A stretch of 40,051 nucleotides of DNA, taken from a virus. A program made the translations under genes and the position numbers. This document shows, one piece after another, positions 1-24,670 of this stretch. Within the stretch, counting starts at the first letter, position 1; every line of letters starts with the position of its first letter. The stretch is taken from the IMG/VR virus record IMGVR_UViG_3300020165_000047, positions 1-40,051 of that record; one strand, written 5' to 3'. The notes below the pieces were generated by a model, which was not told the origin of the DNA, ran no database searches, and saw nothing but the letters and a program-made list of their open reading frames with translations.

Positions 1-1207
1 TATAAGTGTTGGTGCTGTTGTCTTGTTGAATGACAGTGGCACCACCTCCAGGAGCTCCTCCTAGATTTTCAGTCGCCTGCATAATGTTCATTCCGGAACT
101 TCCGGGTACAGATTCCACATTGTTTTTCCCGAAGAATCTTCCTAAAAACGGAATGGGAGCAGCACCTTCAAAACCAATAGGTTTATCTCTTTGCGTCTGT
201 AAGAAGTTTTCTACTCCTTGTAATGCACCAGGCTTATATAATTCTGATTTGACGGTACCTTCAAATCCTTTTTGCCCGCGTTCATATCGGGCATTTTGCA
301 TTTGCATAATAGCCACGGCTTCTTCAATTACTCCCCGAGAATACAGTTCCGGAGATTCTAAAACTTGCTGCGCTCCTCCAACTATAGTATTATCAGTAGT
401 TTCAGTAGGGCGGAGTACTTGGAATGCGCCTTCAGTGACAATACCACCTCGGATTAAGTTTCTAGGATTGAGTAATGCTTTTCCTGCACCTGCAGCAAGA
501 TTTTTTATTCTTTGCCCGAGTGTTGCTTGAGGTTTTATTGCACTTAGCTTTTGTTGAGTAGAAAATCTTTGTTGAGCAGAATTTGCAGCTGCTTTTTGAG
601 AAGCAGCCCTTTTAGATGTTTGATCTCTTTGATTGAATCTTTCCTGATCTAATTCTGCCGATCTTGCTACAGCTCTATTGATTCTTCCTTGAAGGGCTTG
701 TCTTTCTGCAGCAGCACCCATAAACTTAGATCCAGCTAAAACGGTAGGAACAGCAACTGCAGCCGGTCCCAATAACGCTGGATCGATACCGTTATCTGGA
801 TTATCTGGATCGAATATATTTGGTAAAGAAGGTAAAGAATTCTTTATAGTATCTACGATTATTTTGCCAGCTCTAGCAAAAATCGCATTAATATCGTTTC
901 TAAACTCTTGACTGCTGAAATACAAAAGTCCCAGTAAAGCGCCGCCTCCCAGGAGTTTAGCAAGTAGACCTGAGTTTTCTTTCACTACGGATACTACTTT
1001 GCCCATACCAGCCATTCGATTTCTGCGCTCTTCGGCCGCTTTTTCCCTGCGGTCTTCTAATTTATCGAGCTGATCGTCAGGACCTTTTCCACCAAAATTT
1101 ACAAGATCGGCAATACGGCCTACTAAAGACTCAATGGCCTCTACGGTTCGTTCCTGCTTCTCACCCTGATCTACGAGGGTCTGGTTGATATCTGCTAATG
1201 TTGTCAT
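1..1207 (-). CDS. Large virion protein, tape-measure candidate (partial, C-terminus beyond window)
   Basis: Reads leftwards from an ATG at 1207 and stays open to the left edge, giving 402 codons without a stop. The start overlaps the stop of the preceding 62-residue ORF as ATGA. The N-terminal 100 residues are charged and helical (LDKLEDRREKAAEERRNRM), followed by a hydrophobic stretch around residues 80-100 (LLAKLLGGGALLGLLYFS), a second one (LLGPAAVAVPTVLAG), an Ala/Gln/Arg-rich helical part, and a Gly/Asn/Thr-rich segment at the visible end (GGGATVIQQDNSTNTY). Helical content, hydrophobic patches and a position directly after gp26 and a small chaperone-like ORF fit a tail tape measure (T4 gp29 role). 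That is inference; no diagnostic domain is visible. It could also be another baseplate hub or tail structural protein. Confidence 0.45.
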   Translation of the reverse strand, partial: MTTLADINQTLVDQGEKQERTVEAIESLVGRIADLVNFGGKGPDDQLDKLEDRREKAAEERRNRMAGMGKVVSVVKENSGLLAKLLGGGALLGLLYFSSQEFRNDINAIFARAGKIIVDTIKNSLPSLPNIFDPDNPDNGIDPALLGPAAVAVPTVLAGSKFMGAAAERQALQGRINRAVARSAELDQERFNQRDQTSKRAASQKAAANSAQQRFSTQQKLSAIKPQATLGQRIKNLAAGAGKALLNPRNLIRGGIVTEGAFQVLRPTETTDNTIVGGAQQVLESPELYSRGVIEEAVAIMQMQNARYERGQKGFEGTVKSELYKPGALQGVENFLQTQRDKPIGFEGAAPIPFLGRFFGKNNVESVPGSSGMNIMQATENLGGAPGGGATVIQQDNSTNTY

Positions 1208-1392
1208 CGTGCGTTCTTAGCCTTTTGTTTCTCTGCTTCTTCTTGAAGGTGCGTAACCAACATTGAGATATAAATTTCCCTCTCCCAAGGTAACATATTT
1301 TCGATTTCAGTCAGCGAGTACTTAAAGTGGTGCATCAGCTGGAAGTTGGTGTTGTATAGGTTCACCAACGATTCATGAGAGAGGCTTATCAA
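1204..1392 (-). CDS. Small gp51-like / tail assembly chaperone ORF (62 aa), possibly expressed by -1 frameshift from gp26
   Basis: A 62-residue helical ORF with the motif PWEREIYISMLVTHLQEE near its end, a type I associate with small proteins next to gp26 in T4-like phages (the place of gp51, baseplate hub assembly). T4 gp51 is about 250 residues, so this is far shorter. The only start giving the full ORF is a TTG at 1392 inside the run of eight T that ends gp26; the next Met is residue 19. The frame is -1 relative to gp26, and the T run is a perfect slippery heptamer in the gp26 frame, so the ORF may be made as a C-terminal extension of gp26 rather than initiated on its own. An AAGGAA 13 nt upstream of the TTG could serve either initiation or frameshifting. 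It overlaps the next gene by ATGA. Confidence 0.5.
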   Translation of the reverse strand: MISLSHESLVNLYNTNFQLMHHFKYSLTEIENMLPWEREIYISMLVTHLQEEAEKQKAKNAR

Positions 1393-1411
1393 AAAAAATC
1401 AGAGGTTCCTT
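1389..1411 (-). promoter_or_regulatory. Candidate programmed -1 ribosomal frameshift site at the end of gp26
   Basis: On the minus strand gp26 ends GAT TTT TTT TGA TAA. The in-frame heptamer T TTT TTT (1398-1392) fits the X XXY YYZ rule for -1 slippage, and the next codon is a stop, a further stimulant. An SD-like AAGGAA (1411-1406) lies 7 nt upstream of the heptamer, comparable to the SD stimulator of E. coli dnaX. After slippage the next codon is TTG (1392-1390), continuing into the 62-residue ORF and giving a product of about 298 residues. A perfect 7-bp stem (1369-1363 with 1351-1345) begins 22 nt past the heptamer, farther than usual stimulatory structures, so its role is doubtful. Confidence 0.55.
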
Positions 1412-2099
1412 GTAAAGTAATTGAGTTTTTAGTTTCACATGATGTACAATCAAAGTCAATTTTATGCTTGAGTTGTGGGATACTGTCAACATATTCACGT
1501 ACTTTATTATACTGTTCCGAAGTTAAAGAGTCGATAAAGTTGTCAATCTCCTCTTGTGATTCATCAGCAAAGACGATACGATCTTCTCCGACTGCCACCG
1601 CATCGATACATACTTGAATTGATTCTAAGTTACGTTCAGTCATTGACTTCTCTTGATTGAAGAAATCCGAGTTGATCACTTGATCAATACTGGGGAACTT
1701 CATTTCAAGATAGATATCAGATGAGATTTGAATCGTGGTTTTTTTGCGAGGTACTGTGATTTTAATATTCTCTACGTTAACAGATACGTCGTTCAGTTCT
1801 TCACAAGACTTACACTTGATGCGAATGTCCGACGTCTCACCTACAGACTTTGCTCTGACCTGTAAAAACAGGTATTCGATATCAAACACAGGTAAACTGC
1901 GAATCTTAATGTTGTCATCGATACAGGCCTCCAGCGTGTCTACGATGGAGTTCAGAATAATCTTCTCATCTTGAGATTCCATTGCAATCAAAAGAATCTT
2001 TTCTTCTTTCATAAGGAATGGGCGAAAGCTGACTTGCTTGTTCAGCGAAGGCACTTTAGTCGTGTATTTGATCGACTCATTGATTCTTGGTAAAGCCAT
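1389..2099 (-). CDS. gp26: gp26-like baseplate hub / tail assembly protein
   Basis: 236 residues, close to T4 gp26 (208). It matches the T4-type baseplate protein family by its N-terminus (MALPRINESIKYTTKVPS), a central CKSC (residues 96-99), a second CTSC (218-221) and the closing TLQGTSDFF; the two CxxC pairs would form a zinc ribbon. T4 gp26 is needed for baseplate hub formation, and its position before a tape measure suggests a tail-chaperone-like role. A good SD (GGAG, about 8 nt upstream) supports the ATG at 2099. The reading frame ends in tandem stops TGA TAA directly behind a T8 run, discussed as a possible frameshift site. Downstream genes follow with 4-nt overlaps. Confidence 0.8.
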   Translation of the reverse strand: MALPRINESIKYTTKVPSLNKQVSFRPFLMKEEKILLIAMESQDEKIILNSIVDTLEACIDDNIKIRSLPVFDIEYLFLQVRAKSVGETSDIRIKCKSCEELNDVSVNVENIKITVPRKKTTIQISSDIYLEMKFPSIDQVINSDFFNQEKSMTERNLESIQVCIDAVAVGEDRIVFADESQEEIDNFIDSLTSEQYNKVREYVDSIPQLKHKIDFDCTSCETKNSITLQGTSDFF

Positions 2100-6315: not shown

Positions 6316-7658
6316 TGGTAGCTACGGTTGAACAGACTTTTAAGACAAAAATATTAGTAGAGTTAATCTCTCCTAGGCAAGGCACTAAAAACGTTGAGTT
6401 AATTGCCCAGGAGATTAACTTCTATGAGTCTATTGAAACTCCATATGTTACTGGTAATATTGTAATCACAGACTCGTCTAACCTTTCAAATGCTGCTGCA
6501 ATGATTGGTCAAGAAGATATTAAAATCACTGTTAAAAGACAGACTGATAAAGGCTCAGGCGAGACCATTATTCAAAAAGAATTGTCAGTCATATCTATTC
6601 AAAAAACTAATAAGTTGAATGATAGTACCTCTGTTTATATTTTGAACTTCATTGATAAGTTTGCTGCTAGAGATAAAATTATTCGCTGGTCTAAAAAGTA
6701 TGAGAGCAAGCCTGATGCCATGATCTCTACTATTTTAAATGAAAAGCTTGGAGTTAGAACTACAGCAAGAAGTAGCGCTATTCAAAATAATATGAGAGTA
6801 CTTGTTCCATTTACATACTCTCCTATGAATATAGCCGAGTGGTTAACTGCCAGATGTACTACAGGACAAGGTGCTCCGTTCTACATATTCTCGCACTTAA
6901 AAAAGAATAATGAAGTAGAACTTGTAGATCTACAGACTCTTTTAACTCAGGGAGCCTTGAATTCAGGTAATCCTTTTAAGTATAGTTCAGCAATGGGAGC
7001 TGGAAAAGAACTTCAAGCGCAGCAGCCATTTAGAATCTTGACATATGAAACAAATGTCGAAAGTACTATCAAAGCGATTAATGGCGCATCCTATGGTGCG
7101 CAATATCATTGGTTAGATCTCTACAAGGATGGAGCAAAGGAAGATAGGTATAAGATCACTGATGTATTAAGTACGCTTAACATGAGTAGTCAACCTGCAG
7201 CTCCATATAACTATGATCCTGGCTATTCTCTTGCTCCTCCATATCACGAAGGTGTTAGTACATATACCTCGCAGATTGTAACTAGAAAGATTTTTGACGA
7301 TGGAACATTCTCATATAACGAAGAAGCTAACTTTGAACCTCATATGAGAAAGGCTGAAAGTAAAGGACTGTTTAACTTTGCTCCAAAAGAATCAATTATT
7401 GCTCAAGTTCCAGCAGAGTTTTTTGATAATCAAAATGAGATTGTAGGTAGAGTCATTAACTTAGAATTTCCAAAAAACATTTTTGTTGAAAAAGAAGCTG
7501 CCAGTTCTCAAAAAATGAAGGATAAGAAAAAGTCTGGCAATTGGCTAGTCTACTCTACACGCCATATCATCAGTAATAGAAACTATACGATCGCTATGAC
7601 CTGCTTAAAGACTGGTACAGATGCCTCTATCGGACAGGAGCAGTTGAACGCACCATGA
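6315..7658 (+). CDS. gp27: Baseplate hub protein gp27-like
   Basis: 447 residues versus 391 in T4. Strand-rich N-terminus (ETPYVTGNIVITDSSNL, DIKITVKRQT, SVYILNFIDKF) and a middle domain (MRVLVPFTYSPMNIAEWL, then GAPFYIFSHLKKNN) follow the gp27/gpD hub pattern, in which a trimer forms a pseudo-sixfold ring at the tube base and holds the spike. Its position directly before the gp5 OB-domain gene, with an ATGA overlap, supports this. The C-terminus is basic (KMKDKKKSGNW) and ends in a strand domain (NRNYTIAMTCLKTG). Confidence 0.8.
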   Translation: MVATVEQTFKTKILVELISPRQGTKNVELIAQEINFYESIETPYVTGNIVITDSSNLSNAAAMIGQEDIKITVKRQTDKGSGETIIQKELSVISIQKTNKLNDSTSVYILNFIDKFAARDKIIRWSKKYESKPDAMISTILNEKLGVRTTARSSAIQNNMRVLVPFTYSPMNIAEWLTARCTTGQGAPFYIFSHLKKNNEVELVDLQTLLTQGALNSGNPFKYSSAMGAGKELQAQQPFRILTYETNVESTIKAINGASYGAQYHWLDLYKDGAKEDRYKITDVLSTLNMSSQPAAPYNYDPGYSLAPPYHEGVSTYTSQIVTRKIFDDGTFSYNEEANFEPHMRKAESKGLFNFAPKESIIAQVPAEFFDNQNEIVGRVINLEFPKNIFVEKEAASSQKMKDKKKSGNWLVYSTRHIISNRNYTIAMTCLKTGTDASIGQEQLNAP

Positions 7659-8458
7659 TGAAAGCTATTCAAAATCAGTTTTATGGCGATAACCCTAGAT
7701 GGTTTATCGGTGTTGTAGAAGATAATAAAAATGATCCTGAGCAGCTTGGTCGTGTCAGGGTACGTATTTTTGGTATTCACAGCCCGTACCTTAATGATAT
7801 TGCTAAAGAAGATCTTCCATGGGCAAATGTTTTAATTCCCCCTACAGGTGGAGGAATCTCTGGCTTAGGTAACAGCCCTACTGGTCTTCAACAAGGCGCA
7901 TTTGTCTTTGGTGTCTTTATGGATGGTGAACATTCTCAGATGCCATTTGTATTAGGAACATTTAGTAAGTTTGAGACTGATACTGGAGAAAATATTATTC
8001 CATACAAGATTGATATTCAATATGGTGGTGCAGCTGGAGGAGCAACTTCAGGGGAATCAGAATCAGATCCTGAAAGATCAACCATCCAAGGTGACTATAA
8101 TAAAGAAGCTTCCAGGCTTACCTATGAGCAGCTAGCTACACTGCAGCTGGCAGCAACTGAATCTTCAACTGGTTTTGGACTTTACAATCTTTCTGATATT
8201 AGAGCTAAAGGTTATTATAATTTTTGTTCAAGTAATAACTATAATGTGGATGATCCTAGAGCTCAGTTTCTTTATATTTTCGAAGAATACAAAAAAGATG
8301 ATGACCTAAACTATAGTAGTTTTAAATCTTCTGATACTATTAGAGAATCCATTGTTTCTTTCTATAAAGATTATTTAGAAAAAGACTTAAATGAAGAAGA
8401 ATTACTCACTAGAGAAATTGCAGCATACGAATTAATGGATAGGTTTAACGAATTATGA
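7655..8458 (+). CDS. gp5: Spike protein gp5, N-terminal OB-fold part only
   Basis: 267 residues. The OB fold that anchors gp5 in the gp27 ring is clear: FIGVVEDNKNDPEQLGRVRV (17-36), RIFGIHSP, DLPWANVLIPPTGGG (53-67), then PTGLQQGAFVFGVFMDGE (75-92) and MPFVLGTF (96-103). After about residue 105 a Gly/Ser linker leads into a helical, acidic segment (SIVSFYKDYLEKDLNEEELL) of unknown role. Neither lysozyme nor beta-helix is present: both gp5 functions lie in the next two genes. ATG-ATG doublet at the start, overlapping the gp27 stop; the end overlaps the next gene by ATGA. Confidence 0.85.
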   Translation: MMKAIQNQFYGDNPRWFIGVVEDNKNDPEQLGRVRVRIFGIHSPYLNDIAKEDLPWANVLIPPTGGGISGLGNSPTGLQQGAFVFGVFMDGEHSQMPFVLGTFSKFETDTGENIIPYKIDIQYGGAAGGATSGESESDPERSTIQGDYNKEASRLTYEQLATLQLAATESSTGFGLYNLSDIRAKGYYNFCSSNNYNVDDPRAQFLYIFEEYKKDDDLNYSSFKSSDTIRESIVSFYKDYLEKDLNEEELLTREIAAYELMDRFNEL

Positions 8459-9699
8459 CGACTATTGCTTCTATTAATAATAAACTGCAGAATTTATTAT
8501 CACAATATACTTCACTTATTGGAGGCGTTTATACCAGATCTTTAGCTGCAACAACTCAGTTGAAACAATTGACTAGATCTAAAAAAGATCTCAAAATCGG
8601 CGACGTTGTTCAAGGAATCGAGGTTATTAGTTTTATAGATGAAAATGAAAACCAAGAAAAAGTAGCTTTAGGAAGAGTTACTACAGCTGTTCCAGTTTTT
8701 GGAAGTCTACTAAAAACAAATTATGGATCTACGCTTTTGGCTAGTAGTGGTGACTTTTTATATGATATTACTGTACCTATGACTACTCAAGATGTGTTTA
8801 ATCTTTTTAATTCAACATTAAGAAGCTATTTTTCAGTAGTCCTTACATCTGAACAAATTACATTAGCGGCTATTAGTGTGTCTGAAGGAATGGCCGATTT
8901 TAATGCCACACCTGGATATAGTACAGTACCATTAATTAATCAAGCCGGCGATGCTTTACTCGATGCTTCTAATTCTTTACTCGCCAGGTTACCAGGAAAG
9001 AAAAAATATATTTTAGATGATATAACAGAAACTAAAGATCTTGCTAATAACATATCATTAAGTAGTCTTACTGAAATGGCTCCTAGAAATCCAGTTCCTA
9101 TTATTGACTATTCTAATCCTGCGCCAAGATTATCTTTAAGAACTTTAGAGGATATTGAAGCTTATCTTCTTACTTCGGTTAGAGATATTAATCAAGTTAT
9201 TGTAGGACATACTAATACGTATGCCGATCAATTTGTTTCATACGATTCTTTATATTATAGAGATGTTACTATTTCTAGACTAGACGACGTATCATGTCAT
9301 TTTATTATTACAAAAGAAGGACAAGTCATCACGGCCAGAAATATTAATACAGCTGCTCCTTTTGCTGATGCTAAACACAATGATTTTTCTATTGCAATAA
9401 TGTTAGAGGGTGGACTTCTTGGCACTACTGGATCTGGTAACGTAAAATATTCTAAAAAAAGTTTTACTAAAGCTCAGTTTAGAGCGTTTAAAATATTCCT
9501 TAAAGCTTTCTATACCATCTATCCAGGTGGTCAGGTGTGGGGTAAGAACGATTTAGATCAAAACACAAGTGAACCCGAATTTAGTGTTACTAAATATATC
9601 GATAGTGTATTTGATAAACAGAATACACAGTCTATTGCACAGGTTAGAGACGCGGGCTCCCTGTCAACAGACGATTTGATTTTTAGCCAGAAGAGGTAA
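8455..9699 (+). CDS. Spike-cluster protein with degenerate amidase_2 (T7 lysozyme-like) domain
   Basis: 414 residues. Residues about 247-385 look like an N-acetylmuramoyl-L-alanine amidase fold: VIVGHTNT (248-255), CHFIITKEGQVITAR (281-295) matching T7 lysozyme YHFIIKRDGTV, SIAIMLEGG (312-320) and a long helix AQFRAFKIFLKAFYTIYPGG. The zinc ligands are not where expected: T7 H17 lines up with G251 (a His sits one place later), the H122 region reads VWGKNDLD, and the C130 position falls in SEPEF. It is therefore probably structural rather than catalytic. The N-terminal 240 residues are unrecognised. ATGA overlap with the OB-domain gene and a 2-nt gap to the beta-helix gene indicate co-translation and probably joint assembly in the spike. 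Confidence 0.65.
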   Translation: MTTIASINNKLQNLLSQYTSLIGGVYTRSLAATTQLKQLTRSKKDLKIGDVVQGIEVISFIDENENQEKVALGRVTTAVPVFGSLLKTNYGSTLLASSGDFLYDITVPMTTQDVFNLFNSTLRSYFSVVLTSEQITLAAISVSEGMADFNATPGYSTVPLINQAGDALLDASNSLLARLPGKKKYILDDITETKDLANNISLSSLTEMAPRNPVPIIDYSNPAPRLSLRTLEDIEAYLLTSVRDINQVIVGHTNTYADQFVSYDSLYYRDVTISRLDDVSCHFIITKEGQVITARNINTAAPFADAKHNDFSIAIMLEGGLLGTTGSGNVKYSKKSFTKAQFRAFKIFLKAFYTIYPGGQVWGKNDLDQNTSEPEFSVTKYIDSVFDKQNTQSIAQVRDAGSLSTDDLIFSQKR

Positions 9700-9701
9700 C
9701 G

Positions 9702-11285
9702 ATGGCAAATCCAGGACACCCATATAGAGGTATAAGAAACGATAACCCAGGAAATATTAAAAATATTCCCGGAGGTTGGAAAGGCCAGACCGGAATCGAT
9801 GCTGGTGGTCACGCTATATTTTCTAATCCGGTATATGGCGCTAGAGCCATGTCCAGTCAGCTTAAAAGAAATGTTGATGTCTATAGAACTAGCAACCTAA
9901 CTCAGCTAATTGGAGGTAACTCTCGATATCCAGGATGGGCGCCGACAAGTGACGGTAATAACGTACAGAATTATGTTAATTATATAACCGCTCACATGAA
10001 TGAAAAGGGATATAATATTACCGGAGAAAGTGATATTACATCTTTGATGCAGGATTCACAGTTTAGATCTGATCTTATGAAGGCCATGACTGAACTTGAA
10101 GGTGATACCTATGAATATTTTACTAATGAAATTTTAAAGGCTGGTGATGAGGCTGTAGGCAAAAATGAACAAGATATCAATACAACTCCTAGCCCATCCT
10201 CTAGCGCATCACAAAATCCATCTAATAGTCCTACCAACTCTCCTAATTCAACTCCAGGAGGAAATAGTTCTGCAGGTGCAGCAGGCAGTACAGCGGCTCC
10301 AGCATCTTCATCAGGTGGTGGAGAATTGGGATTTAAAGATCCAGATAGAAACTATCCAGAAGAAAAATACGTTGGAGAGCAAACTACAAACAAAGCAGCT
10401 CGAGCCGGAGCTCCAGAATGGGAAACTAGATTAAACCTTCCTCAAAGTGCAATAGGTAGAGAGTTACTCCCTAAAGAATTTAATCCAGAATATCCTAGTA
10501 ACAAAACATATGAAACTGAGGATAAACATCGTATCGAATTAGATGATACTGAAGGTAAACCTAGGATTGAATACGCCCATATGAATGGTTCTGGATTTTC
10601 GATGGAAAACGAGCCAGATAAAGCAAGAATGTTACTTAATTCCTATGGCGACATGGTAGAGTTAGTAGGCAATGATTTTACTATGATTGTAAATGGTAAT
10701 GGAGATATTCTCTATACAGGAAACTTGAATCTTACAGTTGAAGGTAATATGAATTTAAATGTTAAAAAGGATTTAACGTTTAGAGTGGGCGGAACCTATA
10801 GAGAATTTGTTGATAAAGATAAGCGTTTGCTGACTGTTGGTAAAAAAAATGAATCAATCGGTAAAAATTATGAACTTAAAGTTGATGAAAATTTTATAAC
10901 AAAAGTCGATGGAAAATACGATCTTTTAGCAGATTATATGAAGATTAGCCTTAATGACGGAGCTAATATTTCTACTGGAGAAACTATAGCTGTTAGTTCT
11001 GATAAAGTTCAAATTGCTACAGGAGATTTTACTTCTACATCTACATCTATTGACGTCCAGGCATCTTCTGGTGTAATTGGCGGTAATGCTGTTCAAATAT
11101 CTGCAGGACAAATTGGACAATATAATTCTGCGGCTGTAACTGAAAACAAAAGAACTAATTCATCTGAGGGGCAAGTTACTAGTGTAACACAGACCCAAAC
11201 TGAAGTTAAAAATAAAGCTGGTGCTAATAAAGATGCAATTAAACCAGCAGATATATACAGCGGTAATGGAGGTCAATTAGTATGA
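9702..11285 (+). CDS. gp5: Spike protein: lysozyme-like N-terminal domain plus gp5 C-terminal beta-helix
   Basis: 527 residues in three parts. Residues 8-105 (RGIRNDNPGNIKN, GWKGQTGID, FSNPVYGARAM, YPGWAPTSDGN) match a family of lysozyme-like phage virion proteins related to PRD1 P5-type domains; catalysis is not proven. Residues 160-207 are a Ser/Pro/Asn/Gly linker. Residues 310-470 contain short strand repeats (DMVELVGNDFTMIVNGNGDI, NLTVEGNMNLNVKKDLTFRV), the triple beta-helix needle of gp5/VgrG. The needle punctures the outer membrane; the N-domain may open peptidoglycan. No PAAR-like tip motif is seen; the last 55 residues are polar. SD GAAGAGG lies 7 nt before the ATG. Confidence 0.8.
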   Translation: MANPGHPYRGIRNDNPGNIKNIPGGWKGQTGIDAGGHAIFSNPVYGARAMSSQLKRNVDVYRTSNLTQLIGGNSRYPGWAPTSDGNNVQNYVNYITAHMNEKGYNITGESDITSLMQDSQFRSDLMKAMTELEGDTYEYFTNEILKAGDEAVGKNEQDINTTPSPSSSASQNPSNSPTNSPNSTPGGNSSAGAAGSTAAPASSSGGGELGFKDPDRNYPEEKYVGEQTTNKAARAGAPEWETRLNLPQSAIGRELLPKEFNPEYPSNKTYETEDKHRIELDDTEGKPRIEYAHMNGSGFSMENEPDKARMLLNSYGDMVELVGNDFTMIVNGNGDILYTGNLNLTVEGNMNLNVKKDLTFRVGGTYREFVDKDKRLLTVGKKNESIGKNYELKVDENFITKVDGKYDLLADYMKISLNDGANISTGETIAVSSDKVQIATGDFTSTSTSIDVQASSGVIGGNAVQISAGQIGQYNSAAVTENKRTNSSEGQVTSVTQTQTEVKNKAGANKDAIKPADIYSGNGGQLV

Positions 11286-19165: not shown

Positions 19166-22100
19166 ATGGCAGTTTTTAATAAAGACACTCTGGGTACAAC
19201 TTACAGAGACGATTTTGATGAGGATAAGGGATTTTATCAAATCCTTTTTAATTCTGGAGTAGCTCTTCAGGGAAGAGAATTAACTCAGTTACAAACTATC
19301 CTTGGAGATCAAATTGAAAAGTTTGCCAAGAATATCTTTGTAGATGGAAGTGTAGTCGAGCCCGGCGGTGTTTCTATTATTAGTAACTACGAATATATTA
19401 AAGTTACTCAATCTACAGTCGATAATGTTACTGCCGGAGATATTTTACGCAACGCAGGAAATACTATCAGAGCAGAAGTAATTAATAAAATTAATGCTAC
19501 TGATACAGATTCGTCCGTCATTTATGTAAAATATGTAAACACTTCTGGAGCAACAACTTCTCTTACTAGTGTTGCTAATACCGACATTAGATTTAAAGCA
19601 GACGATGTACTAACTAACTTGGCAAACTCTGCCACTTTAAATGTGGAAGCCGGCGCAAATAATCCTATTGGATTTGGCAGTTACGCCGATGTGCAGCCTG
19701 GTGTATATTTTACTAGGGGTAAATTTGTAAAGTTTTCTGGTGGAAAAATTGTTATTTCCAAATTTAGTCCTACTCCTACAGAGACTCTTGGCTTCAAGGT
19801 TATTCAGGATGTAATTCAGCCTACAGATGATATTTCACTTTATGATAATGCTAACCCAGGCGCAGTACCAAATCAGTCTTCGCCAGGCGCGGATCGTTAT
19901 AGAATTCGATTAGAATTAGCTTTAGAAAGAAATATTGATTCCGATGAACAGTTTATTTTCTTGACTGACATTATAGGTGGTATTAAACAAAATCAGCCTG
20001 AACGTACAGTATATGGCATCTTAGGAGATACTTTAGCCGAACGAACAAAAGAAGAGTCTGGTAACTACACTGTAAAGGATTTTAATTTAGATATTCAGAC
20101 AGGAAGTACAGATAATTTAGTTGCTAGCTTAACTCCTGGAATCGCATATGTAAATGGTTTTAGGATTGAAAAATCCGACAAGACAAATCTTTTGCTTAGT
20201 AAAGCTAGAGATACTGAGACTATTAATAATGAAGCAGTCGCCGCAAATATTGGTAACTTTATTACTATTAATGGTGATAGTGGTCAGTTTGCTGGTATGC
20301 CTGATATTAACTCTTTTGAAGAATTGACTTTAAAAGATAGTACAGGATTTACAGGAGATACTTTAGGTACAGCTAGAATTAGGCAAGTTGTCAGATCCGG
20401 AAGTAATTATAGATTCCATCTGTTTGATATTCAAATGGATAGTGCCAATAACTTTAGAGACACTAGAAGCTTAGGCAGCTCGGTTAATTCCTATGGTAAT
20501 ATTGTATTAGAAAATAATATTGCTGTTCTTAAGGAAACCAGTAATAATAACTTGTTCTTTGATCTAACTAGAGAAAAAGCAAAGTCAGTAACCGACGTTA
20601 GTTTTGATGTTCAGCGTAAGTTTGAATTTTCTACTGGAGGCGGAGAAACTGAACATACTGAAACATTAACAGCGTCAGGCGAAACCTTTACTAATATTAA
20701 TGACTGGATTTTTATTGATAAAACTAATAACGATAGAGTGATTAATACTCCAGCGTTTACTGGTGGTACAGGACAAGCAAGTATTACTTTTTCTGGACTT
20801 ACCAGCTCTAATAGTTACGAAATTATTGGCTTTGTAAATAAGTCAAATCCAACACTAAAAATCAAAGACTTAAGAACTGCGACTGAGACTTTAACTGGAA
20901 CAGGCGGGACTATCAACCTTACTAATTTTGATATTTTCTCTTTGGATTCTGTAGGAGACGCTAGCGCATCTAATAAGAATATTAAAAGTCGTTATACCCT
21001 TGATAATGGTCAGAGAGATAACTTCTTTACAACTGGTCGACTTTTATTAAAATCAGGACAGTCTGCTCCAAGTGGAAACGTACAAGTTAGGTATCGTTAT
21101 TTTGAGCATGAAAATGCTGGAGACTATTTCTCTATTAACTCTTATAAGTCTGCGAGTGTGTCTGGAGGAATTGCTCCAGAAAATATTCCTACATATCGCC
21201 AAAGAAACGGTGAAGTTATTGACTTCCGTAACTATCTTGATTTTAGAAGCTTTAAAGACTCTGCCTTGGGGGCGTTTACTGAGACCGGTGCTAATAGAAT
21301 TGTTGAGCTTCCTAAAAGTACTGATATTATTACAGCAGACATTGAATATTATCAAGGAAGAAAAGATGCTATTGTAGTTGAAGGAAAATCTTCTTTAACT
21401 CCTGGAACATCTAGAGCGCCAAAAATCAAAGTGATTCAGGGCAAATCCGATTTTGATCCAGAAATTCCTGCAATTCCAGATACATCAATGAAAATTTTTG
21501 ATCTAGAGTTTAAGCCATATACTGATGATGAAAATGATATTATTATTAGTAAAATTGATAATCGCCGTTATACTATGAGAGATATTGGTGATATTGAAAA
21601 AAGAATCGATAATCTTGAGGAAGTAACATCTCTTACTCTTCTTGAGTTAGAAACTTCTTCTTTAGAAGTTCTTGATGCAAGTGGTAATAATAGATTTAAA
21701 AATGGATTCTTTGCTGACAACTTTAAAAGCTTAAACTTTTCTGATATTACAGATGAGCAATATTCGGCATCTATTGATCTTGAAACTGGTATTCTTGGTC
21801 CAAAATATAATGATAAAACTGTAGAATTGTTCCATGATGTTGATGATGGAGATAATAGTAATATCTTCTTTGGCGGTGACCGTATTATGTTGAACTTTGA
21901 TGAGTCACCATTTATCTTACAAAACTTAGCAACAGAAACAGAAAACCTCAACCCGTATGAGTTTAGACAGGTTGTAGGAGATTTGCAAATCACTCCTCAA
22001 AGTGACTTTTTCTCTGAAACTAGAATTATAGGAACTAATGTAGTAGGAAGAACTTCTAGAGTCGTTCGTAGAAACGGACGTCCTTCTAGAACTGTAAGAA

Positions 22101-24670
22101 CTACTTTCCAAGTAGTTGGTGTAAGAACTGTCGGTGTTAACATTCTTCCATTCATGAGACACCGTCAGGTATGGTTTAGAGCAACTGGCCTTCGTCCTAA
22201 TACTAAGTATTTCTCTTTCTTAGATGACGTTAATATTAGTGATTTTACAATTAAGATTGATAATCTGTTTACAAATCTTTATGATTCTGCATCACAAGGA
22301 ACAAACTTAGTTGTAGTTCCTAATACTGGCGCACAAGTTAGAACTCCTGCAGTAGTTAATAGAGCACTTCCTACTGTTTCCGAAATTAGAACTACTGTTG
22401 GAAATAGAACTTCTAGGAGAAATAGAAGGACCCGCAGAAGAAACGCTGTTAGAGTTAGACCTAATCTTAGCGGATTTACAACGCCAACTTCAATGCAATC
22501 GAATCCATTAAACAACTTAGTTTTCAATGGTATCTCTGTTGCAGATTCACTTACTAGTGGAGCATATAGTACTGTAACTCAACACCCTCTTAAAGATGGT
22601 ACTAATGCGCAAGCTTTGATTACGGATAACTTTGGTATTATTGAAGGTTCATTTTTCGTACCAAATAATCCAAATCTTAATATTGCCAGAACTAGTATCC
22701 GAACAGCTGGAAACAGTATTGGATCTTTAACTCTTTCTCCTGAGGCTTCTACTACAAGTGAAACTGGAGATGCGCTCGGCAACTTTAATAATAATGATAA
22801 TTTTAGACTCGATCTTTCAAGCACAAATAAGCTGCTACGCTTTAGAGGCGGCACTATACCATTTACGTTAATTGATATCAGTGAACTTGACCTTACCGGT
22901 GCTGCATCTTATGCTCAGACATTCTACACCTCTGAAGGTCAAGAGGTTCTTCAAGTACGTGATGTTATTAGAAGAACGACCATCGTATCTCAAAGAAGAG
23001 ACCACGATCCATTGGCTCAATCTTTCTTCCAGAACAACGATGACGGTGCTTTCCTAAGTAGAATTGACGTATTCTTCGCCAATAAAAATACTACAGATGG
23101 CGGAGATGATGTGGATGAAGATGTATTCTTAGAAGTAAGACCTATTGAAAATGGTGTTCCTTCTCAGGAAAACGCTGTTCCAGGATCTAGAGTTGTACTG
23201 TCTAATAAAGACATTAATCTTCCAGCGGTAGCTGAGGCTAATCGTACTATTGATGATCTTGTAGCTACATCATTTAAGTTCAAAGCTCCAATTCATTTAG
23301 ATGGCAATAGAGAATATGCGTTTATTTTAATTGCTCCTAATAACCGATACAATGTCTACGTTGCTAGAACTGGAGATCTCTTACTTGGTAGAACAGATAG
23401 AAGAGTAACAAGACAACCTCTGCTTGGATCGCTGTTTATGTCACAAAACAGCATTACGTGGACTCCAGATCAAACTAGAGACATCATGTTTAGGTTATGG
23501 AGAGCTAAGTTCAAGAGAACTGGTAATGCTAAACTGGCAAACATGCCATTAGAAGATGTACAACTTACTGCAGATCCATTCTCAGTAATAAATGCAGATT
23601 CTAACATTAGTGTTTTCCATCCTAACCACGGATTTACTAAAAATGATGAGATTGATCTGTATGTTTCCGATTCCTCTGAGTTGACAACTGTAGCTAACTT
23701 TGGTGGTGTTACTGGCACCAGCTTGTTAGGAAGAAAAACCGTGGCTAAGGTTGATGGTGACTTTTTCCAATTTGTTCATGATTCTGCGCCTACTTCGACT
23801 GCAGTTGGCGGTGGCTCTAAAATCATGTGTACACAGAATGCGATGGTTGATGAAATCATTCCAATGATTCAAGACTTTAAGCCAGAACCTACTACTCTGA
23901 CTTACAATGCAAACTTAACTCAAGGTGTTGGTCTTGCGTTAGCAAATGATGAGAACCAAAGCATCTCTTATGCAACTCCTAAAGGATTTGAGGTAGTACC
24001 TTTCCAAAACTACCTGTTAGATACATCTAGAATTATTGCGGGCGAGACTATTGAGGAAGAAGAAAATACACTTCTTGATCAAGACTCTGGTAGCGCTAGA
24101 CTGTCTCTTGAAATAGATGTGTCATTGACAACTACTACTGATTGGGTATCTCCTGTAATTTACTCTGATGTCATGAGTATGGTAGCACGTGCAAATATTA
24201 TTGACAATCAAGATTCTGACACTGATGCTACATATCCATTAAATAATCCAATTACGTTTGTCAATGAAGCTACTGCCACAGGAGGATCGCATCTTTCAAA
24301 GCACATCACGCGGCCTATTGTTCTTGATGAAGCTGCTGTAGGATTAAAAGTTCTGCTTGGAGCTAATAGACCTGCATATATCTTAAATGATCAAGTAGGT
24401 GAAGCTGATTTTGACGTCTATTACAAGACCGTGCCGATTGGATCGGATTTAACTCTTGATGATGTATCTTGGATTTTGGCTAATAAAGATTTTGATATTG
24501 CAGCTGATGCTAATAGAGATATTTTTAGACAATATGAATACACAATTGGCGGTTTAGGCGGTACCTTATCTCCATTTACAACCTTTGCAATTAAAATTGT
24601 AATGAGATCTGCTAATACCTGTTCACCTCCAAGATTTAGAGATCTTAGAGTAATTGCGTTAGGTACATAA
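19166..24670 (+). CDS. Giant tail/baseplate protein with DUF4815 N-terminus
   Basis: 1834 residues, the largest protein here. The first 70 residues (GFYQILFNSGVALQGRELTQ, LQTILGDQIEKFAKNIFVDG) are the DUF4815 signature of large structural proteins in marine T4-like phages. Later landmarks: PFMRHRQVWFRATGLRPNTK near 995 and DPLAQSFFQNNDDGAFLSRI near 1280, both recurrent in phage baseplate and fibre-connector proteins. Two Arg-rich tracts (around residues 960-985 and 1077-1097) contrast with an otherwise acidic protein. The position after gp8 and before the fibres suggests that it links the baseplate to the fibres, filling the place of T4 gp9-gp11; this is inference. SD AGGA lies about 11 nt before the ATG. 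Confidence 0.8.
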   Translation: MAVFNKDTLGTTYRDDFDEDKGFYQILFNSGVALQGRELTQLQTILGDQIEKFAKNIFVDGSVVEPGGVSIISNYEYIKVTQSTVDNVTAGDILRNAGNTIRAEVINKINATDTDSSVIYVKYVNTSGATTSLTSVANTDIRFKADDVLTNLANSATLNVEAGANNPIGFGSYADVQPGVYFTRGKFVKFSGGKIVISKFSPTPTETLGFKVIQDVIQPTDDISLYDNANPGAVPNQSSPGADRYRIRLELALERNIDSDEQFIFLTDIIGGIKQNQPERTVYGILGDTLAERTKEESGNYTVKDFNLDIQTGSTDNLVASLTPGIAYVNGFRIEKSDKTNLLLSKARDTETINNEAVAANIGNFITINGDSGQFAGMPDINSFEELTLKDSTGFTGDTLGTARIRQVVRSGSNYRFHLFDIQMDSANNFRDTRSLGSSVNSYGNIVLENNIAVLKETSNNNLFFDLTREKAKSVTDVSFDVQRKFEFSTGGGETEHTETLTASGETFTNINDWIFIDKTNNDRVINTPAFTGGTGQASITFSGLTSSNSYEIIGFVNKSNPTLKIKDLRTATETLTGTGGTINLTNFDIFSLDSVGDASASNKNIKSRYTLDNGQRDNFFTTGRLLLKSGQSAPSGNVQVRYRYFEHENAGDYFSINSYKSASVSGGIAPENIPTYRQRNGEVIDFRNYLDFRSFKDSALGAFTETGANRIVELPKSTDIITADIEYYQGRKDAIVVEGKSSLTPGTSRAPKIKVIQGKSDFDPEIPAIPDTSMKIFDLEFKPYTDDENDIIISKIDNRRYTMRDIGDIEKRIDNLEEVTSLTLLELETSSLEVLDASGNNRFKNGFFADNFKSLNFSDITDEQYSASIDLETGILGPKYNDKTVELFHDVDDGDNSNIFFGGDRIMLNFDESPFILQNLATETENLNPYEFRQVVGDLQITPQSDFFSETRIIGTNVVGRTSRVVRRNGRPSRTVRTTFQVVGVRTVGVNILPFMRHRQVWFRATGLRPNTKYFSFLDDVNISDFTIKIDNLFTNLYDSASQGTNLVVVPNTGAQVRTPAVVNRALPTVSEIRTTVGNRTSRRNRRTRRRNAVRVRPNLSGFTTPTSMQSNPLNNLVFNGISVADSLTSGAYSTVTQHPLKDGTNAQALITDNFGIIEGSFFVPNNPNLNIARTSIRTAGNSIGSLTLSPEASTTSETGDALGNFNNNDNFRLDLSSTNKLLRFRGGTIPFTLIDISELDLTGAASYAQTFYTSEGQEVLQVRDVIRRTTIVSQRRDHDPLAQSFFQNNDDGAFLSRIDVFFANKNTTDGGDDVDEDVFLEVRPIENGVPSQENAVPGSRVVLSNKDINLPAVAEANRTIDDLVATSFKFKAPIHLDGNREYAFILIAPNNRYNVYVARTGDLLLGRTDRRVTRQPLLGSLFMSQNSITWTPDQTRDIMFRLWRAKFKRTGNAKLANMPLEDVQLTADPFSVINADSNISVFHPNHGFTKNDEIDLYVSDSSELTTVANFGGVTGTSLLGRKTVAKVDGDFFQFVHDSAPTSTAVGGGSKIMCTQNAMVDEIIPMIQDFKPEPTTLTYNANLTQGVGLALANDENQSISYATPKGFEVVPFQNYLLDTSRIIAGETIEEEENTLLDQDSGSARLSLEIDVSLTTTTDWVSPVIYSDVMSMVARANIIDNQDSDTDATYPLNNPITFVNEATATGGSHLSKHITRPIVLDEAAVGLKVLLGANRPAYILNDQVGEADFDVYYKTVPIGSDLTLDDVSWILANKDFDIAADANRDIFRQYEYTIGGLGGTLSPFTTFAIKIVMRSANTCSPPRFRDLRVIALGT

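Follow-up and report, generated by a model that had tools for sequence, protein, structure and literature searches.

The tail assembly chaperones (TACs) gpG and gpGT of phage lambda are a short and a long product of one gene, and Xu, Hendrix and Duda reportedly described in 2004 the programmed -1 frameshift of these and other TACs. In the lambda model, the short form coats the tape measure protein while the long form links it to the tube subunit, and G-T frameshifting has been reviewed as conserved "except T4" (PMC5009743). Vladimirov, Gautam and Davidson 2022 (Virology 566:9-15) is known here through papers that cite it, according to which T4 gp26 and gp51 were assigned as TACs (PMC10274946, PMC10885494, PMC12846349). 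Its title puts forward an alternative to the frameshift mechanism; two of the citing papers refer to it for T4-like phages with short and long, fused TAC genes in place of frameshifting (PMC10274946, PMC10885494), and the third for poly-T slip signals of T4-like TAC-N genes (PMC12846349). The subject here is gene 26 in the virus record IMGVR_UViG_3300020165_000047, whose 40,051 bases form the window. An initial annotation of this DNA proposed that gp26 is joined to a small gp51-like open reading frame (ORF) by a -1 frameshift, and did not know of a description of this for T4-like phages. It is not new, in so far as both the chaperone assignment and the poly-T slip signals are already cited as published; the window is therefore counted as a further member of a kind whose principle is already known. 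What is added is a broad slip-site count, tests of start codons and selection, a Shine-Dalgarno (SD)-like element and a copy-number test. With a probability of roughly 0.93, judged from sequence comparison, gene 26 yields a short and a long TAC by -1 ribosomal frameshifting, as a pair of the lambda gpG/gpGT type.

The gp26 gene ends, on the minus strand, with GAT (1400-1398) TTT TTT TGA (1391-1389) TAA (1388-1386). This places the heptamer T_TTT_TTT in phase for a -1 slip with tandem stops directly after it (Table 1), as the initial annotation had read it. Its other readings were equally accurate: AAGGAA ends 7 nucleotides (nt) 5' of the heptamer, the -1 frame encodes 62 residues (LISLSHESLVN..., to 1204) for a predicted fusion of 298 residues (236 + 62), and a TTG within the T run is the only full-length start of that frame. 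Further starts lie 8-9 codons in, and the -1 frame is open from only 7 nt 5' of the gp26 stop, and the predicted junction of the long form is ...SDFF-LISLSHESLVNLYNTNFQLMHHFK. The genes of the window, approximately 12,660 codons, contain eight T_TTT_TTN heptamers in all, and that of gp26 is the only one found in phase at a gene end.

Relatives were sampled from IMG/VR viral contigs and named phages. The first set held 234 unique gp26 loci, which fall into 50 clusters when grouped at 50% identity and into 22 when grouped at 40%; counts of loci ignore this relatedness, and a heptamer was counted when in phase within the final 11 codons of gp26. The heptamer T_TTT_TTN was found in 232 of the 234, as T_TTT_TTC in 185 and as T_TTT_TTT in 38, the exceptions being T4 and Pseudomonas phage Cygsa01. 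The comparison of gp26 ends that had been suggested as a check thus finds both the heptamer and the -1 phase conserved, and the -1 tails, where not truncated, are all 56-69 residues long with conserved sequence in common. The same loci supplied 940 control ORFs, each 150 codons or longer; eight of these had a terminal heptamer, and in none was a heptamer combined with a -1 ORF of 50 codons or more. Because of this difference, and because the gp26 heptamer is the unique gene-end case in the window, its presence is not due to chance. Nor is it a by-product of the protein sequence, as NNT TTT TTY occurs in 223 of 224 terminal Phe-Phe motifs (T4 is the exception) versus 7 of 217 Phe-Phe pairs elsewhere in gp26; by this count, the slip-site codons are conserved beyond the Phe-Phe residues alone. 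Cygsa01, Serratia phage 3M and Vibrio phage K444 form one single-copy-type clade that lacks T_TTT_TTY. Phage 3M (Ackermannviridae) has an in-phase G_GTT_TTC at the gp26 end (L264:3238-3244), which we take to be the slip heptamer of T7 gene 10, and its -1 frame has no start in the first 12 codons. The same comparison refutes the explanation that a T lost or gained during sequencing or assembly has split one continuous gene. Although homopolymer runs are error-prone and T4 gp51 is continuous, 232 unique loci, finished isolate genomes among them, show the same break, most with six T and a C, and the probability of such an error is negligible.

Upstream of the heptamer, an SD-like element, defined as 4 nt or more matching the Shine-Dalgarno sequence, is present in 206 of the 232 loci versus 22% at control positions, mostly at a spacing of 10 nt. 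The Glu codon at this site is GAG in 118 cases and GAA in 34, a preference that is reversed in the gene body (1450:3571; p = 3e-34, relatedness ignored). The AAGGAA of the window is probably an internal Shine-Dalgarno stimulator, as judged from its sequence and the enrichment of the motif in relatives. On the 3' side, folding z-scores of the 50 cluster representatives peak in a 60-nt stretch starting 6 nt from the heptamer, with a mean of -1.75 and half of the values below -2. The only clear stem of the window lies 22 nt 3' of the heptamer (z = -2.68 for a 39-nt stretch), which is too distant for a classical stimulator, and it is not common to the relative L006. In phage P-SSM2, a strong stem-loop, AGTATGGCTCATGA...TCTTGAGTCATACT, starts 5 nt 3' of the heptamer (L009:3220-3250), and stems that are similarly placed but differ from it occur in several relatives.

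These features also bear on whether the long form could instead arise from slippage of RNA polymerase on the T run, where one extra U would give the same protein product. The eight T of the window make a run long enough for this to be plausible. However, the run is exactly six T in 194 of the 232 relatives, mostly ended by C, and the X_XXY_YYZ phasing is kept; further, both the SD-like motif at approximately 10 nt and the folding downstream belong to slippage by ribosomes, not by the polymerase. Polymerase slippage is consequently held to be improbable.

The extension itself provides the second line of evidence for a ribosomal frameshift. In 86 of the 232 loci, and in 22 of the 50 clusters at 50% identity, the open -1 frame has no ATG, GTG or TTG up to extension residue 11. 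Over the first 12 extension codons of these start-less loci, the ratio of nonsynonymous to synonymous substitution rates (dN/dS) is 0.14 in the -1 frame, and the other two frames give 1.36 and 2.54, so that this segment is under purifying selection by the substitution pattern. The absence of a start codon and the dN/dS of 0.14 mean, therefore, that the first extension codons are translated in the -1 frame without a usual start. Relatives with a proper ATG and SD for the small ORF and no slippery run had been named as the case that would tell against frameshifting; the run is instead near-universal, and more than one-third of the relatives are without a usable start.

Alternatively, the extension could be a gene of its own, with ribosomes that finish gp26 reinitiating at the TTG or at a nearby ATG overlapping the gp26 stop, and the T run could be incidental. 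The TTG of the window is well placed for this with AAGGAA upstream, separate gp51 ORFs are annotated in GenBank for many cyanophages, and an early ATG, within residue 3 of the extension, is present in 88 of the 232 relatives. However, the TTG is lost in the close relative L002, where TAA replaces TGA, and there is no early start either in L006, Melnitz, Mosig, C48C1, S-CAM1 and 65.2, while the start-less residues before position 12 are those under strong selection. The heptamer is retained even where an ATG is present, and a separate gene gives no reason for the invariant -1 phase and codon choice. Judged from the sequences, the extension should not generally be able to be a separate gene, and this explanation is considered very unlikely, although relatives with an early ATG may also translate the extension separately. 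For S-CAM1, the predicted long-form peptides from the start-less part or the junction are ...LQSFFR and IAVFHNSLEGYYK.

By profile, the extension matches phrog_634, "baseplate hub assembly catalyst" (3.8e-25), and the C-terminal positions 236-278 of phrog_150. It has tblastn matches in 504 phage records and is predicted to be helical (H6-22, H27-31, H35-61). A profile of the extension (window 1207-1392) gave mainly weak, short matches to human immunodeficiency virus gp41 heptad repeats in the PDB, which were judged to be chance coiled-coil similarity. In the public records of C48C1, Melnitz, Mosig and P-TIM40, the extension appears with an internal start, labelled either hypothetical or, in truncated form, "baseplate hub assembly catalyst", and it is unannotated in those of S-CAM1 and Aeromonas phage 65.2; the mis-annotated or omitted extensions are at L008:3283-3387, L011:3250-3393, L012:2555-2689, L013:2555-2701, L010 and L262. 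Frameshifting would explain cyanophage "gp51" annotations with wrong starts, as well as missed genes.

The third line of evidence comes from T4, where the two forms are encoded separately. The gp26 of the window belongs to the same family, matching PF12322 (T4_baseplate) with 194 bits (curated cut-off 24.5) and phrog_150, baseplate hub, at 7.7e-58; many members of this domain family have Cys-x-x-Cys motifs, and a sequence search of the PDB with gp26 found no relatives. T4 gp26 (208 residues) consists of the PF12322 domain, ending ...GLKEFFELL at the position of the short-form end and slip site. T4 gp51 (249 residues) consists of the PF12322 domain (1-201) followed by a segment that matches phrog_634 and the -1 extension: phrog_634 matches residues 147-246 at 1.2e-23, and homology to the extension is also seen in the alignment. 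T4 thus has one gene for the short product and another for the long one; the two genes are divergently oriented and lack a slip site, and by domain composition gp26 and gp51 are the equivalents of the short and long forms. The description of the 62-residue ORF as gp51-like holds for the C-terminus of T4 gp51, but the counterpart of T4 gp51 is the whole fusion of gp26 and extension.

RB43, Aeromonas phage 25 and Acinetobacter phage Stupor carry both genes, as T4 does; in the record of Stupor, each of the two is already called "tape measure protein assembly chaperone". Consistent with this, these four T4-type records have two PF12322 copies each, whereas the 18 whole phage records that show the gp26/-1-ORF layout have one each. 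In a tree of gp26 domains, the T4-type gp26 and gp51 share a branch apart from the frameshifters with weak support (60/57), and for that reason no date is claimed for the duplication. The frameshift-made pair and the two-gene pair apparently do the same job in related phages. A wider proposal is tentative and rather doubtful: in nearly all T4-like phages outside the T4 type (marine, schizo-type Vibrio and Aeromonas, Stenotrophomonas and rhizobial), a single gene would give gp26/gp51 by means of a U_UUU_UUY -1 frameshift and an internal SD, a gene duplication having taken the place of the frameshift on the T4-type branch. For gene 26, the comparison finds the slip site, frame and extension to be conserved, the start-less part of the extension to be selected and the two forms to correspond to the short and long proteins of T4, and these results bear out the suggestion that gp26/gp51 is a G/GT-type chaperone pair.

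In addition to the early ATG codons and the eight T of the window, three points weigh against frameshifting of this type. First, RNAalifold found no consensus RNA structure 3' of the heptamer among the relatives, and a conserved pseudoknot or stem is, therefore, not claimed. Second, an AlphaFold2 model of gp26 has a mean predicted local distance difference test score (pLDDT) of 92.7, and among the PDB fold matches listed for it the highest probability (0.69) belongs to 2ob9, the HK97 tail assembly chaperone, but this match is below significance (E 0.35; target template modeling (TM) score 0.40-0.48). Third, the gene that follows is a tape measure candidate mainly by position. Its ATG overlaps the extension stop, and its counterparts have 469 (L003) and 489 residues (L006). 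The window ORF had no confident family match in profile searches and no match in isolate phages; the counterpart in Sinorhizobium phage phiM12 matches tape-measure PHROGs (1.8e-5), the sole clear family support among the counterparts tested. For the earlier label "tape-measure-like", position is the main basis.

From the comparison we infer that slippage takes place in the cell, how efficient it is and what the two forms bind. Most ribosomes would terminate at TGA to give the short form of 236 residues. A minority would pause at U_UUU_UUU via the upstream SD-like element, slip one base back and read UUG AUA AGC..., giving the 298-residue long form, which would gain a helical C-terminal domain. 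By analogy to lambda gpG/gpGT, coating of the tape measure protein would fall to the gp26 domain, present in both forms, and recruitment of tail-tube subunits to the domain that the long form has in addition; both forms would depart before the virion is completed.

Table 1. Positions of the gene 26 frameshift features and the following gene in the window.
Feature	Position	Strand	Basis
gp26 homologue, short form (TAC-N / gpG-like), 236 residues, ends ...SDFF and stop	1389..2099	-	PF12322, phrog_150
T_TTT_TTT slippery heptamer in the gp26 phase, part of an eight-T run (1391-1398)	1392..1398	-	sequence
SD-like AAGGAA, probable internal Shine-Dalgarno stimulator	1406..1411	-	sequence; motif enriched in relatives
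Tandem zero-frame stops TGA TAA, directly after the heptamer, ending the short form	1386..1391	-	sequence
-1-frame extension, 62 codons and stop (TAC-NC / gpGT-like part)	1204..1392	-	phrog_634, phrog_150 C-terminus
Possible stem-loop GTTGGTG...CACCAAC, role doubtful	1345..1369	-	folding z-score
Next gene, candidate tape measure protein, runs off the window	2..1207	-	position, ATGA overlap

The locus is part of a T4-like gene set on the minus strand at the start of the window, comprising gp4, gp2, a tail-tube-like protein, gp26, the small ORF and the further gene that runs off the end. Elsewhere in the window, matches to the gp5-type hub/lysozyme are split over several ORFs, these being N-terminal gp5-like (7655-8458), amidase-like (8455-9699) and further gp5-like (9702-11285). 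For an ORF of 1834 residues at 19166-24670, all matches are to PHROGs of unknown function (phrog_358, 877 and 5986).

If correct, and if not already contained in Vladimirov et al. 2022, the wider proposal of a one-gene frameshift outside the T4 type would reverse the picture of T4-like phages as the exception to G/GT frameshifting. Among known systems, the SD-like stimulator approximately 10 nt 5' of the heptamer resembles that of the E. coli dnaX -1 frameshift, which uses an A_AAA_AAG heptamer and a strong downstream stem-loop, and in which the long product is the zero-frame one. The lambda slip heptamer is G_GGA_AAG. The window locus would be like lambda gpG/gpGT in having a short form and a low-level -1 long form from one tail-cluster gene, a slippery heptamer at the 3' end and a candidate tape measure gene next; it is unlike lambda in its T_TTT_TTY slip site and in its large gp26 domain. 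The TAC locus of phage Adele (Vandenendeviridae/Andersonviridae) likewise has a -1 shift at a poly-T at the TAC-N end, just before the tape measure, but the motif there is GTTTTT and the phage family is a different one (PMC12846349).
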